Below are positions 4,142-11,504 of a stretch of DNA of 64,000 nt, piece after piece. The first letter of the stretch is position 1, and every line of letters begins with the position of its first letter. Below the pieces are notes generated by a model. The model worked only from the letters and a program-made list of their open reading frames with translations, had not been told where the DNA came from and did not search any database. This stretch comes from Parvicella tangerina (lineage in GTDB: Bacteria; Bacteroidota; Bacteroidia; Flavobacteriales_D; Parvicellaceae): assembly GCF_907165195.1 (NCBI RefSeq), contig NZ_OU015584.1, positions 744,001 to 808,000 of the forward strand. Direction: 5' to 3'. The position numbers and the translations under genes were made by a program.

Positions 4142-4218
4142 GGGGAATTAGCTCAGTTGGCTAGAGCGCTACACTGGCAGTGTAGAGGTCAGCGGTTCGA
4201 ATCCGCTATTCTCCACCA
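4142..4218 (+). tRNA. tRNA-Ala(GGC)
   Basis: A full cloverleaf of 77 bases including the encoded CCA. The acceptor stem GGGGAAT pairs with ATTCTCC (one G-T pair), the D arm carries AGCTC/GAGC, and the anticodon stem CTACA/TGTAG holds the loop CTGGCAG with anticodon GGC. The T arm has GGTTCGAATCC. Anticodon GGC reads GCC and GCU alanine codons. A strong terminator starts 8 bases after the CCA. Confidence 0.96.
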
Positions 4219-4281
4219 AGAAAACAAAGCTTGACGCGAAGTGTTGAGCTTTTTCATTTTATGCTGCTGAGAATTTATTTT
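4200..4281 (+). repeat. direct repeat copy 1: tRNA-Ala 3' end plus terminator
   Basis: The last 19 bases of the tRNA-Ala and the following terminator region recur exactly 160 bases downstream. Identity is complete for about 63 bases and then imperfect to about 4281. This copy belongs to the functional tRNA. Confidence 0.9.
4226..4256 (+). terminator. terminator of tRNA-Ala
   Basis: A 12-pair stem with several G-T pairs (AAAGCTTGACGC against GTGTTGAGCTTT) and a GAA loop, followed by a T run. The same structure is repeated at 4386. Confidence 0.85.
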
Positions 4282-4359: not shown

Positions 4360-4441
4360 AATCCGCTATTCTCCACCAAGAAAACAAAGCTTGACGCGAA
4401 GTGTTGAGCTTTTTCATTTTATATGGCTGAGAATTCATTTT
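4360..4441 (+). repeat. direct repeat copy 2: orphan tRNA 3' end plus terminator
   Basis: Second copy of the 4200-4281 repeat, offset by 160 bases. It starts within the tRNA T arm (AATCCGCTATTCTCCACCA) but has no 5' tRNA half in front of it; the preceding 80 bases are unrelated. Its terminator hairpin at 4386-4412 is intact and sits upstream of the sigma factor gene. Confidence 0.9.
4386..4416 (+). terminator. duplicated tRNA terminator
   Basis: Exact second copy of the tRNA-Ala terminator hairpin, inside the orphan repeat. It would insulate the sigma factor gene from tRNA read-through. Confidence 0.7.
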
Positions 4442-4528
4442 ACTCTTCGCAAAGGATGTCCCGAAAATTATTTTCTACTTTAGTGGTTAACCTTTTTCAA
4501 ATAGCTCCATAAAGAGAAAAAAGGGATC

Positions 4529-5065
4529 ATGACAGACCAAGAAATTATTACTTTAATCGAAGAAAGACGAGAGCACAAAGCGCTGGTCAAATTGTATAGG
4601 TATGAATCACGAGTGAGTACCTTGATCAAAAAGTATGGAGGCTCCAAAGAAGATGCACAGGATGTGTTTCAAGATGCATTGCTTATTCTTTGTAAGAACG
4701 TTTGGGCAGGAGATTTTAAACTGACCTCAAAACTGGATACCTATTTATATGGGGTATGTTTCAACCTGTGGCGAACAGCGTTGAAGTCCAAAAAAGGAAA
4801 AGAAATCAATTTGCCAGATGAGTATCGACTAGAGGATCAAAATGAACTCGAAGCTTTGATCGCAAAAGAAGGTAAGATCAAACAAGTAGAAGAAGTGCTG
4901 AAGAAGCTTGGAGACCCTTGTTTGAAATTGCTTCAACTGTTCTACTATCAAGCGAAAAAGATCAAGGAGATCATGCAGGAAATGAAGTACAAAACAGAAA
5001 ATACGGTCAAAGTGCAAAAGTACAAATGCATTGAACGAGCAAAGAAAATGATTGCTAAAGTTTAA
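4529..5065 (+). CDS. ECF-type RNA polymerase sigma factor
   Basis: A 178-residue group 4 sigma factor that would direct RNA polymerase to a specific promoter set. Region 2 is visible as GGSKEDAQDVFQDALLILCKN (about 37-58) and LDTYLYGVCFNLWR (about 70-83), the latter corresponding to the -10 binding helix. The C-terminal part from about 115 is a region 4 helix-turn-helix with KIKEIMQEMKYKTENTVKVQ. The gene is followed after 35 bases by a membrane protein with an anti-sigma-like N-terminus, as expected for an ECF pair. The start ATG at 4529 gives the usual length. The regulon is unknown. Confidence 0.88.
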   Translation: MTDQEIITLIEERREHKALVKLYRYESRVSTLIKKYGGSKEDAQDVFQDALLILCKNVWAGDFKLTSKLDTYLYGVCFNLWRTALKSKKGKEINLPDEYRLEDQNELEALIAKEGKIKQVEEVLKKLGDPCLKLLQLFYYQAKKIKEIMQEMKYKTENTVKVQKYKCIERAKKMIAKV

Positions 5066-5100
5066 TTGGAGGTCTGTCACCCTCAGCAAATTAGAGAATC

Positions 5101-7833
5101 ATGAGAAAGGAATTAGAATTAATAAAGATCATCGAGAAATACCTATTTGGGGAACTAAAAGGTGATGACCTCAAACGTTTTGAAGCAAACCTGGCTAAGA
5201 GTGCAACACTTCAAGACGAAGTAGAGAAGCAGCGATTGGTGATGGAAGGGGTGAAAAATGTATCCGTAAGAAGCAAAGTCAAAAAAGCAAAGAAGTCTTT
5301 TAAAATCAATAAGTGGGGTTGGAATGGGTTGATAGCTATTATTACTGCTGGAGTTGTTGCAGCTGGAATTTATGGGTACGATGCCTTCTTTGGGGATAAT
5401 ACGACTAGCGAGAACATTAAGTATGAATTGAATGAAGAGGGAACTACCTTATGGAGCGAAGCAGATGAAATGATAGCTCCCCAATTCTACACAGTGAACA
5501 ATGACGAGGGAACCGTTTTGCAAACAGATGCGGGAATGATCATCGCAATTCCTGATGGAGCATTTTTGGATGAGCTTGGCAATCCCGTGGCTGGATATAT
5601 CGAGTTAGAAGTTAAGGAAGCGTTAGATGGAGAGTCGATCATGTTAGCAGGACTGAGTACAAAAAGTGGAGATGATCTGTTAGAAACAGGAGGAATGTTT
5701 TACCTCAATGGAAGAAAGGATGGTAAGACGTTAAAGATGAATCCGGATCAACCGATCATAGTGGAAGTTCCAACCGATGAGGTGAAGCTGGGAATGGAAT
5801 TGTATCATGGAGTCAGAAAAGAAGATGGAGGGTTGGATTGGCAAGACCCTAAACCAATTGAGCAATTCTTGATTCCAGTGGATATTCATAGTTTGAATTT
5901 ATATCCGCCTAAATATGAACAAGGGCTTGCTTCGTTAGGCTATGGTTCTGAAGGAAAACAGTGGAAGGATAGTGTGTATTATAGTTTTGGAGGTTTTGGA
6001 GCATCAGAAGGGTATCAAACCATTCCTACGGTGCTACATCCTTCTGGACATATCCCTAATCGAGCACCAAAAGGTTGGGAGTTAGATACGCTTGGTTATG
6101 ATCCGTTTGAAGATGAGACGTTGATAGCTGATGGAATAAATGAGGAAGAAGCTATTAAACTTGGTTACTACAGAGTGGATACAATGTGGGGTGGTGCTTT
6201 AGAAATCAACCCCTCAAAAGTACAAGCATTCTGGAATGATGAATTTCAAAATACTTTATTGGCTACGAAAGAATTTGAAGAACGCATGCCTTTCATTCAC
6301 TGTGTAGCAAAAGATAAAGTGCTGGACTTGTATGTTCATAACCTGGATAAAAAGATGAGTACGGTAGATAGTATGGTGGTTGATTATCTGGGAGGTATTG
6401 AAGGGAGTTGGGGAGAGCCGACTGTTGCCGATGTGGCAAGTGATATTGAACATGGTAAGTTGCTTTTCCAAGCGAACTGCGCCAGCTGTCATAAGACGGT
6501 GTCTTATTCTACGGGACCGCCAATGGCTGGTTCCAAAATGCGTTGGGAAGCTTTTGGTGAAGGTGAATTGGTTTATGAGTGGATTAGAGACAATGGAGCT
6601 TTGAGAAGTTCTGGAAAATCAAAGGCTGCTGAGAGTGTTTTTAATCAATACAATGGTAGTGCGATGACATCTTTTCCTACTTTATCAAATGAAGATATTG
6701 ATGATATTTTTGCTTATGCAGAGTGGGATGCTCTAAATGTTCTTAAGGAAGCAAAAGACTGGAAGGACCTGAATGAAGCATATCTAATAGTACTAGAGGA
6801 GACTGGGTATGAGTTTGCTCCAGAGGAAGATTCTGAAGTTTCTGAGGAGAGTGATTTATCTTATGAAGGTACTGAAGAGCTTGATATCTGCCTAGACTGC
6901 GACATCGAACAACTCAAAGCCAAGTTTGCTGAGTTTGCCTTACAAAATAAGGGTAGGGTAGAAATGAGCCTGAAAGCAGTGAAGATGCTGAAGAAGTATT
7001 ATGAGAAGCATGCTAAAGTTTATGCAAAAGCTGCTGAGAAAGTGCAAAAGAATTTTCAAAAGGAATTGACCAATGCGACTAACAAGTACAATAAGGAAAA
7101 GAATGCTAAAGTGTACGAGGATATTGTTAGAGAAGGGCAGAACCTGACAGAAGAGATCGATAAGAATTTGGATGAAACTTACAAGCAATTAGGGATTCCA
7201 AGACCTAAGGTTCAGATCAACCCTAAAGGACCAAAATATACGATTCCGATCACCAATGCAGGTTGGAATAACATTGATAGAAAAGTAATCGAAGGAACGA
7301 TTGCCAGAGAGACCATCAACGTAGAGTACGAAGGTAAAACGGCAGAGATCAAGTATGAATCGGTTAATGTAGAGGTGGTGGATAGAGATGCTTATGATAA
7401 GGTGTTTGTTTATCTCTTGCCTCATGAGTTAAGTAGCTTTCAGCGAATCACAAAGCGTACAGAAAAAGGTGCTTATACCGAGAACCTGAATGAGTTTTTT
7501 CAGTACGATTTAGTCGTGGTAGGTTACAAAGGAAAGGCCATCTACCTGGGGAGGGAGCAAAATGTTCAATCGCAGAGTTATACCATGAAGATCGTTGAAA
7601 CGGACAAAGGCGACCTGAAGTCTGTGCTACATCATACGGGTAAAAAGAGCTATCGAAATTCATTAGTTGATGATATGCTCGATCAGCAGTCGTTAATGTT
7701 GCAAGAAGCTGTCGTCAATAAAATGGAAGATATAGTTGCCTTTCGACAAGAAATGATGGACTACATTTTTAATTGTAACTCATTTGCGACTTCGGTCATG
7801 ACCGATTCAGTTGGGGTATCTCATGCCATGTAA
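5101..7833 (+). CDS. anti-sigma-like membrane protein with c-type cytochrome domain
   Basis: 910 residues with an unusual layout. Residues 1-65 look like the cytoplasmic helical part of Bacteroidota anti-sigma factors (EKYLFGELKGDDLKRFEANL). One transmembrane helix follows at about 72-96, so the rest should be periplasmic. Residues about 120-265 form a beta domain with GTVLQTDAGMIIAIPDGAF, of a kind seen in Bacteroidota surface proteins. Residues about 445-545 are a class I cytochrome c: CASCH heme site at 460-464 and a likely axial Met522 in AMTSFPTLSNEDIDDIFAY. Residues about 600-700 are a charged coiled coil, then a C-terminal domain of unknown type. The gene lies 35 bases after an ECF sigma gene. 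The role as a redox- or heme-sensing anti-sigma factor is inferred; the domains are seen. Confidence 0.8.
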   Translation: MRKELELIKIIEKYLFGELKGDDLKRFEANLAKSATLQDEVEKQRLVMEGVKNVSVRSKVKKAKKSFKINKWGWNGLIAIITAGVVAAGIYGYDAFFGDNTTSENIKYELNEEGTTLWSEADEMIAPQFYTVNNDEGTVLQTDAGMIIAIPDGAFLDELGNPVAGYIELEVKEALDGESIMLAGLSTKSGDDLLETGGMFYLNGRKDGKTLKMNPDQPIIVEVPTDEVKLGMELYHGVRKEDGGLDWQDPKPIEQFLIPVDIHSLNLYPPKYEQGLASLGYGSEGKQWKDSVYYSFGGFGASEGYQTIPTVLHPSGHIPNRAPKGWELDTLGYDPFEDETLIADGINEEEAIKLGYYRVDTMWGGALEINPSKVQAFWNDEFQNTLLATKEFEERMPFIHCVAKDKVLDLYVHNLDKKMSTVDSMVVDYLGGIEGSWGEPTVADVASDIEHGKLLFQANCASCHKTVSYSTGPPMAGSKMRWEAFGEGELVYEWIRDNGALRSSGKSKAAESVFNQYNGSAMTSFPTLSNEDIDDIFAYAEWDALNVLKEAKDWKDLNEAYLIVLEETGYEFAPEEDSEVSEESDLSYEGTEELDICLDCDIEQLKAKFAEFALQNKGRVEMSLKAVKMLKKYYEKHAKVYAKAAEKVQKNFQKELTNATNKYNKEKNAKVYEDIVREGQNLTEEIDKNLDETYKQLGIPRPKVQINPKGPKYTIPITNAGWNNIDRKVIEGTIARETINVEYEGKTAEIKYESVNVEVVDRDAYDKVFVYLLPHELSSFQRITKRTEKGAYTENLNEFFQYDLVVVGYKGKAIYLGREQNVQSQSYTMKIVETDKGDLKSVLHHTGKKSYRNSLVDDMLDQQSLMLQEAVVNKMEDIVAFRQEMMDYIFNCNSFATSVMTDSVGVSHAM

Positions 7834-7840
7834 GAAAAGT

Positions 7841-7955
7841 TTGTCATGCTGAGCGATAGAGAAGCATCTCCCGAATAGTGATTCTGCTCATGATAAGGAG
7901 ATTCTTCACTCCGTTACACTCCGCCTGCCTGCCGATAGGCAGGTTCAGAATGGCA
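7841..7955. repeat. dispersed intergenic inverted repeat, copy 1
   Basis: Outer arms (GTCATGCTGAGC and TTCAGAATGGCA) and inner arms (GAAGCATCTC and GGAGATTCTTC) form a nested inverted repeat. A second hairpin, CCTGCCGATAGGCAGG, sits near the right arm. The same outer and inner arms occur at 60880-60963, so this is a member of a repeat family. Confidence 0.65.
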
Positions 7956-7956
7956 A

Positions 7957-9453
7957 TTAATTAACTGCTACATTAAGCAATCTCCCTCCCCATTCAACAA
8001 CGGTAAAACCTTTTCGTTCCTGATAGAGTTCGGAAAGGTTTTGCTTTTGAATCTCTACTTGATTTTCTAACGGTTGAAACACCATCATCACACGAATCAT
8101 TGTTTCAGGTTGAGGGGTGATATTCAAATCAGCCATTTGGGTGTAAGCATCACTAGCAAAATGAATCAAGTTGTATGGATTGTTCTCCAAATAGGGCATC
8201 CAGAAAATGATGAACTCATTCGTTTCTCGAGCATTCAGTCCCATTTTTGGTAACTCTTCTTCTAAAAAAGCAATCGTCTCACTTCCTTTCAAAATGGTTC
8301 CATTTGGAATAGTTAAAGGAATGTTTTCCTTCCCTTCCCAATATAAAGCATAATATTCTTTGCCTTCTTCATCGATTAACGTTCCATCTGGAGAGGCGGT
8401 TACCTTCCAACCATGCTGGTACTCTGGATAAGTATGAGTTAGTCTTCCGTCAAACTTCAAGTTTACGGCAACTTCCGTTTCTTCCTCAGGGTAAATGTAT
8501 ATGATGGGCTTTGCAACACCATCCATCATGGATTCGTCCATTTTGAAAACTTCTTCGGCATAAACACCATTTTCGAAGATCTCATGGAGCTCAAGGCTTC
8601 CGTACCAGTTGTAGATCTTAATATCACCATGCAGCAATCCGTCCTTGAAGTTGAGCTCAAACTCTGGGAAAGCATCGTAATAAGTAGGGTGCTGATAAGC
8701 CATTAGTTTTCCTGTAAAAGGCTCTCCATTAATTTGGAATACACTATTAAAAGTTGCTTTTTCAATCATCAGATCAAGCGAATTACCTTGTTTGTCCTGA
8801 AAAGAATGCATGATTTCAACCAGACTATCATTTCTTACCCCATTTTCTACATCATTGATGACTAAACTTGCAGTGGGTTGATCAAAGGTCCAATCCACAG
8901 AGAAAGGTTCTTTTCCCGAATATTGCCACACGCCATTTTTATATACGCGTTCAATAATAATATTTCCTTCAGGGTCGTAGAGTGTGCAGTTGCCGTCAGG
9001 CTTACCGTTTTTAACTGAATAGTTAATTGCAAGGTGTTCCTTTATCGCATCATAGTAAAGATTTATGGTGCCAGTATATTCGCCTAATCCTGCGTAAGTG
9101 AGGTCAAAATTATCTCTTCCAATGACTTGCATGGCTGGATATACAACAGTAGTATCATCTGCGCCATAAACGTAAGGTACGATGTCTAAAGAAGTGAAGT
9201 TCAGAATAGATTCTTTATCGTAGTCTCCATAGTTTTCAATAAAAAAATCCTCATCAGGACCGTCCACCATAGCTACAATGGTGGCACCATTACTATAATT
9301 TGTTACAGTTAGGTCTTCTGTGTTCTCAATGTCTGAAACGATCGAGTCTTGAGATTTTTCGTTACCTGACGTTTGGTCTTTAGGAGTTGAGTCATCTGAA
9401 CATGAAATCAGAATCGATCCCGCAAACAGTAGTGGTAGTAAATGTCTGTTCAT
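7957..9453 (-). CDS. lipoprotein of unknown function
   Basis: 498 residues from ATG 9453, chosen because it begins a lipoprotein signal (MNRHLLPLLFAGSILISCSD, lipobox ISC). An upstream start at 9495 would add 14 unlikely residues. Residues about 20-300 are Tyr/Asp-rich with repeated Gly-Lys-Asn turns that resemble loosely conserved MORN-like strands (YDPEGNIIIERVYKNGVWQY). The C-terminal third holds a domain seen in many bacteria, starting PIIYIYPEEETEVAVNL and containing HGWKVTASPDGTLID; its function is unknown to me. The gene follows the sensor kinase gene closely (56 bases) on the same strand, so the two are probably co-transcribed. An envelope-stress or sensing partner role is only a guess. 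Confidence 0.75.
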   Translation of the reverse strand: MNRHLLPLLFAGSILISCSDDSTPKDQTSGNEKSQDSIVSDIENTEDLTVTNYSNGATIVAMVDGPDEDFFIENYGDYDKESILNFTSLDIVPYVYGADDTTVVYPAMQVIGRDNFDLTYAGLGEYTGTINLYYDAIKEHLAINYSVKNGKPDGNCTLYDPEGNIIIERVYKNGVWQYSGKEPFSVDWTFDQPTASLVINDVENGVRNDSLVEIMHSFQDKQGNSLDLMIEKATFNSVFQINGEPFTGKLMAYQHPTYYDAFPEFELNFKDGLLHGDIKIYNWYGSLELHEIFENGVYAEEVFKMDESMMDGVAKPIIYIYPEEETEVAVNLKFDGRLTHTYPEYQHGWKVTASPDGTLIDEEGKEYYALYWEGKENIPLTIPNGTILKGSETIAFLEEELPKMGLNARETNEFIIFWMPYLENNPYNLIHFASDAYTQMADLNITPQPETMIRVMMVFQPLENQVEIQKQNLSELYQERKGFTVVEWGGRLLNVAVN

Positions 9454-9509
9454 TTTAAAAATAAGCTTGATTGAGCAGCTAAGATAGTCAAACACGAATA
9501 ACTTATCCG

Positions 9510-11504
9510 TTACTTTTTAATAGGTATTTCTAGAATGACTTTTGTTCCGCCTTCAGGTAAGTCGATGATAGAAGTCTTCATTTGTGTGGCATGCATCTTA
9601 TTCAAAATCTCAAGTCGCTGTTCGATGTTTTTCATCCCGGTAGACTTGCCAAGTTTTTGATTCTTAGTTTTCATCTCAGCACTGGCTTGACGCCCAATTC
9701 CATTATCCGTGATCGTCCAAGTAAGTGCGTTGTTGTTTTGCTCCACCTTAACAACCAGATTGCCTTTGTGTTCAAGGTATCTCAGTCCGTGCCAAACGGC
9801 ATTTTCAATATATGGTTGTACGAGCATGGGGGGAATCTCCGTGTTTTCAGTCTCAATATTGGGGGCAATGTTGAGCTCGTAGTCAAACTTGTCTTGAAAA
9901 CGCAAGTGCTCCAGTTCCATATACAACTCAATGATCTTTAATTCACTTTCTAGCGATACAAAATCGTACTTGGAATTTTCTAAAACTAACCTCATTAATT
10001 GACTGAAACGTGATAGATACTTGTTGGCACTTCGATCATCGTTTTTTGAGATAAAACTATTTACTGAGTTTAAGCTATTGAAAATGAAGTGTGGATTCAT
10101 TTGAGTACGCAGCGATTTCAACTCCAGTAGCATGTTCGTTTTTGCACGTTTTTGATTGCTTCTTATGATAGCAATTGCGGCTATGGTCATAATTAGAAGA
10201 ATCCCGATCAAAGCATAAATGATGTACAGTTTATTTTGATTTTCAGCTTCTCGTTTTTCAATATCTAGTGCATAAGCTTCTTCTTTTAGGTTCTCATTTT
10301 CCAGCAATAATTCTATCTGCTCATCTTTTTGTTCAAGCTCTAAGGAGAGGTTGTTAGCCAGCAAGGCTTGTTTGTTTTTTTCTTTTTGAATGGAGTCCTG
10401 AAGTTTAACGAGCTCTTGATAGGCAAGAAGTGCTTGTTCGTAATCCCCTTCTTCTTGATATGCCTGTGTAATGGCTTCAAGAGCTTCTTCTTTTGCTTCT
10501 AGCTCTCCAAGCTCATCAGATAGGTTGATTGAATTTCGGAGGTATTCAATGGCTTCCTTATTGTTCTTTTTTTGGAGATTTAACTTTCCTAATTTTAGAT
10601 TGGCCTTGTTGACTTCTTGAGGGTTGTCATTAGCTTCGTTATAGGCTGCCGCTTGTTGGTTTACTTGAATTTGCTCGTCAACCATTCCTCTATTCCCAAA
10701 ATAATTGTCTGCATTAAGAAAGTAAGTGTTCGTTGTCTGGACTGCCAGATCTTGTGTTCCATTCACCTGCGGAACTATACTGTCTGTATTTTGTGTGAGG
10801 GTAGCGCTCTGCGCAATACTCAAAGAAGTGTCAAAATAATTAAAAGCATTTACGGAATCGTTTACGGTTTCATAAAAATTTCCAAGATTGTTTGAAGCGT
10901 TAATAATGCCTTGTGTATTGTTTCTTTTTTGTTCAAAACTGTAGGCTTGCTGATAGTAAACTTCTGAGTCATCGTAATTTTGAAGAGCTTGATTGCATCT
11001 CGCCAGACCGTTAGTCGCAAAGACAATATCATCCTCCTCATTTTTCTTTTTTGCCTGTTTCAGGAACTTATTGTAATAGGAGATGGCGGTTTCGTACTCT
11101 TCCAATTTTTCATAAGATGCTCCAATGTTTTTTAAGGAGGAGTAATATCCAATCTCACTGTCTTCAAACCCCTCAAACAGGGTAAGTGCATTTTTGTAAT
11201 ACTTAACCGACTTCTCAAATTTTCCAAGAGTGAATTGCAGTCCTCCAAGTGAATTGTAACAATATGCCTCACCCCTCACGTTGTCAAGATCAAGCGATAG
11301 TTTTAATCCTTCTTCAATGTAATCGACTGCTTTTGAAGGGTTGGATTCAGATATCTTGTTGGCAGCGTTGATCCATTTGAAAATCTTGTCATCCGAGTCT
11401 GGAAGGCTGTTAATGGATATAAATGTGCTGTCCTTTTGAGCGGAAACCTCTTTAAATGGTAGTGTAAGAACACTAAGGATGAATATGATGAGTAGTTGTT
11501 TCAT
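9510..11504 (-). CDS. TPR sensor histidine kinase, LytS/YehU type
   Basis: Membrane sensor kinase of the His_kinase (PF06580) family. From ATG 11504 there is a signal peptide (MKQLLIIFILSVLTLPFKEVSAQ), then a periplasmic run of tetratricopeptide repeats (about 30-370), a coiled coil, one transmembrane helix near 430, and the kinase core with NPHFIFNSLNS (His472) and an ATPase domain with ENAVWHG and DNGIG motifs. The start is fixed by the signal peptide and by a promoter at 11520-11550; the longer frame from 11549 would begin inside that promoter. The usual LytTR response regulator is absent next to it. It is followed by a lipoprotein gene. Signal unknown. Confidence 0.9.
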   Translation of the reverse strand: MKQLLIIFILSVLTLPFKEVSAQKDSTFISINSLPDSDDKIFKWINAANKISESNPSKAVDYIEEGLKLSLDLDNVRGEAYCYNSLGGLQFTLGKFEKSVKYYKNALTLFEGFEDSEIGYYSSLKNIGASYEKLEEYETAISYYNKFLKQAKKKNEEDDIVFATNGLARCNQALQNYDDSEVYYQQAYSFEQKRNNTQGIINASNNLGNFYETVNDSVNAFNYFDTSLSIAQSATLTQNTDSIVPQVNGTQDLAVQTTNTYFLNADNYFGNRGMVDEQIQVNQQAAAYNEANDNPQEVNKANLKLGKLNLQKKNNKEAIEYLRNSINLSDELGELEAKEEALEAITQAYQEEGDYEQALLAYQELVKLQDSIQKEKNKQALLANNLSLELEQKDEQIELLLENENLKEEAYALDIEKREAENQNKLYIIYALIGILLIMTIAAIAIIRSNQKRAKTNMLLELKSLRTQMNPHFIFNSLNSVNSFISKNDDRSANKYLSRFSQLMRLVLENSKYDFVSLESELKIIELYMELEHLRFQDKFDYELNIAPNIETENTEIPPMLVQPYIENAVWHGLRYLEHKGNLVVKVEQNNNALTWTITDNGIGRQASAEMKTKNQKLGKSTGMKNIEQRLEILNKMHATQMKTSIIDLPEGGTKVILEIPIKK

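Follow-up and report, generated by a model that had tools for sequence, protein, structure and literature searches.

What is a complete class I cytochrome c doing in a protein encoded directly behind a sigma factor? The question is raised by a gene pair of Parvicella tangerina, which we analyzed within a window of 64,000 nucleotides (bases 744001-808000 of the 3.98 Mb single-contig genome, NZ_OU015584.1; coordinates below are window positions on the + strand). In it, an open reading frame (ORF) for a 178-residue extracytoplasmic function (ECF) sigma factor (4529..5065) is separated by 35 nt from one for a 910-residue transmembrane protein (5101..7833), which we refer to as the partner and which structural matches of its N-terminus and a census of upstream sigma genes mark as anti-sigma-like. 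A previous inspection of the bare DNA (the sequence-only reading) had given both genes and the residues it named correctly, and had suggested that the partner's cytochrome places gene expression under the control of periplasmic redox state, oxygen or heme. The answer that we propose, and hold to be about evenly balanced between right and wrong, is that this is a self-activating pair of an ECF sigma and a transmembrane anti-sigma factor with interchangeable periplasmic input cassettes, the cassette here being a cytochrome related to ActA.

The sigma protein was identified from its ORF and profile matches: NCBIfam sigma70-ECF (TIGR02937) matched residues 18-174 (E = 4.4e-17) and Pfam Sigma70_r2 matched with E = 2.9e-6, and the Pfam scan gave no match to the region 4 model. 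Its sequence is consistent with the ECF definition, that is, regions 2 and 4 without regions 1 and 3.

Linkage of the partner's N-terminal domain to sigma genes

We collected relatives of the partner with queries that held no sigma sequence. The partner alignment A1, run against named genomes, yielded 40 loci, and whole-genome searches added further ones. Of 399 genomes of the order, 61 have the conserved helical module of the partner that we call ATKEFEER (residues 369-431, 6205..6393, defined by the family alignment), as do 4 of 395 genomes sampled across the phylum, P. tangerina being included in both counts. The 910-residue protein was matched in 94 of 100 relatives, but these were not counted as orthologues, since many of the listed matches covered only its cytochrome (ActA) or its beta domain. 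The census holds 93 members that are distinct by core sequence, close pairs such as L069/L081 and L074/L078 included, and sigma genes were recognized in it with a profile built from the sigma genes of these same loci, which had been found by BLAST with the window sigma.

The N-terminal domain is kept in 80 of the 93 members, and 79 of these 80 have a sigma gene upstream, within 100 nt in 77 and at 157 nt (L169) and 637 nt (L055) in the other two. The pairing of sigma and partner noted in the sequence-only reading thus goes beyond chance, and its expectation that the two are conserved together was borne out. The sole member with the N-terminus for which no sigma was found, L200, lies at a contig edge with only 161 nt of DNA upstream. 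The N-terminal domain is absent from 13 members, four of which run into a contig end and were left out of the comparison (L045, a second L054 copy, L072 and L090); the nine uncut ones showed no sigma match anywhere in the fetched locus. Because a sigma gene accompanies the members that have the N-terminus and none of the uncut ones that lack it, we infer that sigma is handled by this domain, and the linkage census is the strongest evidence for this assignment.

AlphaFold2 modelled residues 1-75 with helices at 2-15, 21-33 and 35-74 (mean pLDDT 86.8), and we place the N-terminal helical domain at residues 1-70 (5101..5310). When this model was compared with PDB structures, the six top VIA rows were RsiW, RslA, MucA (twice), RskA and RseA, with Z scores of 5.9-4.1 and the next row at 2.9, and class I anti-sigma chains made up 10 of the 28 Foldseek rows. 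Profile A3 gave RslA an E-value of 0.98, which is not significant, and inspection of the partner's N-terminal sequence showed no Cys/His zinc motif. The consistent set of structural matches suggests, short of proof, a class I anti-sigma-like fold, and with the linkage it argues strongly for an anti-sigma role. The layout and linkage of the window genes are those of a sigma/anti-sigma pair, which they probably form.

Some loci of the census deserve mention in their own right. P. tangerina has a second family pair (L046, G000:C1:2153000-2168000, at 5872-9864), a sigma gene with a 1142-residue partner that ends in TonB_C and has no cytochrome. L088 (8690-10236) carries, adjoining its partner, a second sigma gene and a 306-residue protein whose one recognizable part is the N-terminal domain of the partner family. 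Two database titles look wrong: L066 (CP034120), titled Glaciecola amylolytica, groups with Fluviicola and Taishania, and L086 (CATLPG010000090.1), a metagenome-assembled genome titled Saccharospirillaceae, carries this Bacteroidota family, probably through a wrong title or contamination.

A cytochrome as one of several cassettes

The class I cytochrome c domain of the partner lies behind the ATKEFEER module (residues 447-544, 6439..6732). Two Pfam models, Cytochrome_CBB3 with E = 9.7e-8 and Cytochrom_C with E = 1.4e-6, matched above their curated cut-offs within residues 448-539, and PF07635 (PSCyt1) had no match in the P. tangerina genome or in the controls. The single CxxCH in the 910 residues is the heme c attachment motif CASCH at 460-464 (6478..6492), and Met522 (6664..6666), the presumed axial ligand, occupies the ligand column. 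A CxxCH with a downstream Met inside a cytochrome c domain points to class I, as the sequence-only reading had it from the same residues, and its covalent heme c on the outer side of the membrane is likewise predicted. A Met ligand is more in keeping with a heme that transfers electrons than with one that binds gas.

Comparison of the family sequences shows that the cytochrome is a cassette, one among several, rather than a fixed part of the family. A cytochrome c domain is present in 26 of the 80 members with the N-terminus, in 24 of them between the beta domain and the ATKEFEER module (the main slot) and in two, the window protein and that of the congener G001, in a second slot behind the module. 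Pfam Cytochrom_C was found in 17 of the 35 members of alignment A2, window included, and among the 34 A2 relatives G001 alone has the cytochrome in the window's slot. With those of four members that lack the N-terminal domain, the family has 30 cytochrome domains; all 30 carry CxxCH inside the domain, in a search that demanded this motif at any position of the protein, and in 24 the ligand column is occupied by Met. One member with neither a sigma gene nor the N-terminal domain (L049, 1687-3774) has its cytochrome c at the C-terminus, a third cassette position.

The main slot holds other domains as well. DsbD_N-like domains occupy it in 11 members, two of which also have a cytochrome, by a count that rests on a hidden Markov model built from four of these same proteins; Pfam DsbD_N matched L075 (E = 3e-5) and L041 (E = 0.0086) below its cut-off and did not match L077 or L088. 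TonB_C was found in L184 (E = 4.6e-18) and L170 (E = 1.1e-14), CarboxypepD_reg in L034 (E = 9.1e-16) and a parvulin-type peptidyl-prolyl isomerase (PPIase) in L059 (E = 2.1e-12). Close relatives can differ in this slot: L074, with a cytochrome, and L041 and L077, with DsbD_N-like domains, have sigma factors that are 85 and 82% identical, N-terminal parts 80 and 77% identical and C-terminal parts 70 and 74% identical. L060 carries both domains, and therefore loss of one of the two may explain this difference as well as exchange does. A core tree of 49 rows calls for 10 changes of the cytochrome label and a quick tree of 90 rows for at least 18, of which well-supported branches force 10; these trees, like the domain tree below, come from short alignments and have many weak forks.

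Profile A2 matched the cytochrome domain of subunit A of alternative complex III (ACIII; 6btm_A) with E = 2.1e-12. In a domain tree of 38 rows (two of 40, a fragment and a duplicate, were dropped beforehand), the window cytochrome is nearest to the ActA of its own genome, with 56% identity and a weak fork support of 93/65, and 6 of the 21 family copies, including the window and G001, group with 16 ActA domains. We named the own-genome gene ActA because its cytochrome and cytochrome c7-like domains are followed by Fer4, NrfD and ActD genes. The window partner has the same kind of class I cytochrome domain, but it lacks the pentaheme part, is fused to an anti-sigma-like protein and lies away from the act operon; its single CxxCH and this location rule out that it is ActA itself. 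In Flavobacterium johnsoniae, as reported in PMC8552683, the N-terminal heme domain of ActA is membrane-anchored and mobile, and its proposed role is to carry electrons between ActE and cytochrome aa3, in the direction of the latter.

The rest of the partner agrees with the outline of the sequence-only reading in having one hydrophobic stretch, a beta domain and a long helix, which appear in both the sequence and a full-length AlphaFold2 model (mean pLDDT 72.9). The single transmembrane helix is predicted at about residues 76-97 (5326..5391), with limits judged by eye; the full model draws a helix at 35-96 with low confidence. The beta domain (residues 125-262, 5473..5886) resembles ZU5, GAIN and FIIND domains in the model. 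Some ZU5 domains are autoproteolytic according to PMC3482391; we do not claim autoproteolysis here, and the GAIN, ZU5 and FIIND matches are weak (Z 4.6-6.4). Residues 305-368 (6013..6204) are shared with a 301-residue protein of the same genome, otherwise a different protein, at 79.7% identity over 64 residues (138 of 183 nt), and are missing from G001 in the alignment. Behind the cytochrome follow a long helix or coiled coil in the full-length model (residues 624-697, 6970..7191) and a C-terminal beta domain seen in sequence and model (residues 706-845, 7216..7635). The cytochrome region was modelled poorly and with low confidence, so we make no claim about its packing.

A promoter-like motif upstream of the sigma genes

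Comparison of the regions upstream of the sigma genes revealed a promoter-like motif, which in the window reads GGTTAACCTTTTT-N9-CCATAAA (4485..4513) and starts 44 nt before the sigma start codon. Its family form, TnACCTTT-N12-CAT (or CAC), lies about 40-85 nt ahead of the start of sigma homology. The motif was present in 29 of 40 discovery loci (the 40 of 43 with usable upstream DNA, with the second L088 sigma dropped), compared with a mean of 0.03 and a maximum of 2 in 200 shuffles. A strict version, written after inspection of the discovery set, was found in 27 of 35 later loci (those of 36 with enough upstream DNA), and a loose one in 31 of the 35. In 150-nt control stretches before the partner start, the strict motif occurred in 0 of 78 and the loose one in 1 of 78; the motif was likewise absent from the 700 nt upstream of all nine members without the N-terminal domain.

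Genome searches pointed mainly back to the sigma genes. The window form GGTTAACCTTTTTN9CCATNAA, allowing up to two mismatches, matched the genome once, exactly, at its own operon (reversed control, 1). The shorter GGTTAACCTTTN11CCAT gave 16 genome sites at up to two mismatches, own operon included, versus 19 in the reversed control, and thus no wider regulon. The GGTTACC pattern of the paralogue gave three own-genome sites, two of them exact, against four control matches with mismatch numbers not given; of the exact sites, one lies at the paralogous sigma gene and the other 62 nt ahead of the gene for a GldN-domain protein (L093, G000:C1:2567809). The latter protein has a signal-like start and matches GldN with E = 7.1e-16, and a MORN-like match in it falls slightly short of its cut-off.

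For Fluviicola loci of the L074 and L077 type, the putative promoter reads GTTTACCTTT-N10-AACAC. Three other Fluviicola-type genomes had one exact site each and one two-mismatch site among them, all at sigma genes. A search of four relatives (G513, G515 and G529, one contig each, and G082, five contigs; G529 is the already-searched L066 genome) gave 29 sites at up to two mismatches versus 36 in the control, hence no excess. The three exact sites among these lie at sigma genes; one one-mismatch site lies at a sigma gene and two lie before genes for an OmpA-family and a leucine-rich-repeat protein, and among the two-mismatch sites are one at a further sigma gene and one at the gene for a transglutaminase-like protein. 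Together, these sites make autoregulation of the sigma operon likely, and few further targets are visible with the patterns searched. Further upstream, the intergenic region before the window's sigma gene contains an 82-nt repeat in two direct copies that are 95% identical (4200-4281 and 4360-4441).

Possible signals and rival readings

In the arrangement that we propose, the N-terminal helical domain (residues 1-75) would hold sigma at the membrane, and the periplasmic core, made up of the ZU5-like beta domain, the ATKEFEER module, the long helix and the C-terminal beta domain, would transmit a signal inward. A periplasmic change would free sigma, which would then transcribe its own operon from a GGTTAACC-type promoter, whose motif we observe and whose activity is predicted. 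Electron traffic or oxygen would be the likeliest cue, because the cassette in this genus is a respiratory-type cytochrome: the protein may respond to redox state or to electron flow from ACIII to the terminal oxidase, and hence to oxygen or respiratory stress. Redox sensing by the partner is plausible.

Several observations weigh against this proposal. The best Foldseek E-value for the N-terminal model was 2.2, none being significant, and the structural comparison tool cautions that Z scores below about 13 can reflect a common helical-bundle arrangement. No curated anti-sigma profile reaches its cut-off on the partner (none in Pfam; NF052375 at E = 0.079), so that the anti-sigma-like N-terminus of the sequence-only reading stands on its structural matches and strict sigma linkage, while no curated family recognizes its first 70 residues. 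The fork that joins the window cytochrome to ActA is weak, and 15 of the 21 family copies fall outside the ActA group, by a split that is itself weak (33/5). Met is missing from the aligned ligand column in six of the 30 cytochrome domains of the family. No respiratory gene was found behind the motif, the exact sites being at sigma genes or before the GldN-domain protein. Finally, 54 of the 80 members with the N-terminus have no cytochrome, and the expectation that sigma and cytochrome are conserved together failed. Because of these members, and because the main slot also takes non-redox domains, redox input is no property of the whole family; control by periplasmic redox state, oxygen or heme is possible for the window pair.

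The variety of cassettes suggests a broader idea, which we regard as a real possibility falling somewhat short of an even chance. Lineages would repeatedly insert ready-made periplasmic domains (respiratory cytochrome, thiol-redox-like, TonB_C, PPIase) into one conserved membrane scaffold, every such domain adjusting a self-activating sigma switch of one and the same type, and the cytochrome version would listen to the respiratory chain through a relative of the chain's own electron-shuttle domain.

The same facts can be read in other ways. The sigma factor might serve mainly for the production of its own partner, which would be a working envelope protein with an electron-carrying or structural role and would limit its own amount by self-titration through an anti-sigma tail. 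The lone window-type site at the own operon and the exact sites at sigma genes in the other genomes searched favor this, as do the nine sigma-less members, which keep the periplasmic core, so that the core would have a job of its own. We nevertheless consider it unlikely: the searches covered long, near-exact motifs, true targets may have weaker sites, and varying cargo fits input domains equally well. If the cargo were instead bait for periplasmic maturation, as heme attachment, thiol-disulfide exchange and prolyl isomerization might suggest for the cytochrome c, DsbD_N-like and parvulin domains, an unmatured cargo would lead to proteolysis and free sigma, and the system would report the health of a pathway rather than redox potential. 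CarboxypepD_reg and TonB_C are also among the cargos, and we know of no special need for maturation in either; we think this reading quite improbable. We give just as little credence to neutral capture, by which permissive slots tolerate insertions that have no signalling role. The gain of residues 305-368 by the window protein and the frequent changes of the cytochrome label on the quick tree would fit it, but CxxCH is kept in every cytochrome cargo and Met in most.

The sigma/anti-sigma arrangement that we prefer resembles known pairs in the position of the sigma gene immediately ahead of that for a membrane protein with one transmembrane segment, in the small N-terminal helical domain of this protein, whose predicted fold is similar, and in a promoter-like motif before the operon. 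It differs from them in the missing curated anti-sigma match and zinc motif, and in the large periplasmic part with its exchangeable cassette. Class I anti-sigma domains have been reported beside 6% of Bacteroidetes ECFs compared to 32% on average (PMC7406223), and given this low count, Bacteroidetes pairs like that of the window may have been overlooked. Periplasmic heme c sensors are known in the Geobacter chemoreceptors GSU0582 and GSU0935 (PMC3460858) and in heme c Cache domains (PMC12889525). Like the window partner, for which this is a prediction, these are signalling proteins with heme c bound covalently outside the membrane, but they have PAS-like or Cache folds, whereas the partner is a sigma-control protein into which a class I cytochrome c has been built in full. 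The main text of PMC8103513 does not mention cytochrome or heme, and searches of literature other than subscription papers, where one may be in print, turned up no description of such an arrangement, as judged from titles and the openings of abstracts.

The partner family would provide a concrete, testable set of Bacteroidetes ECF partners with a promoter-like motif, and the natural differences in cassette among close relatives offer ready-made material for the study of domain exchange. If our proposal is correct, electron flow would be coupled directly to transcription, through a sigma switch that takes its input from a respiratory-type cytochrome.

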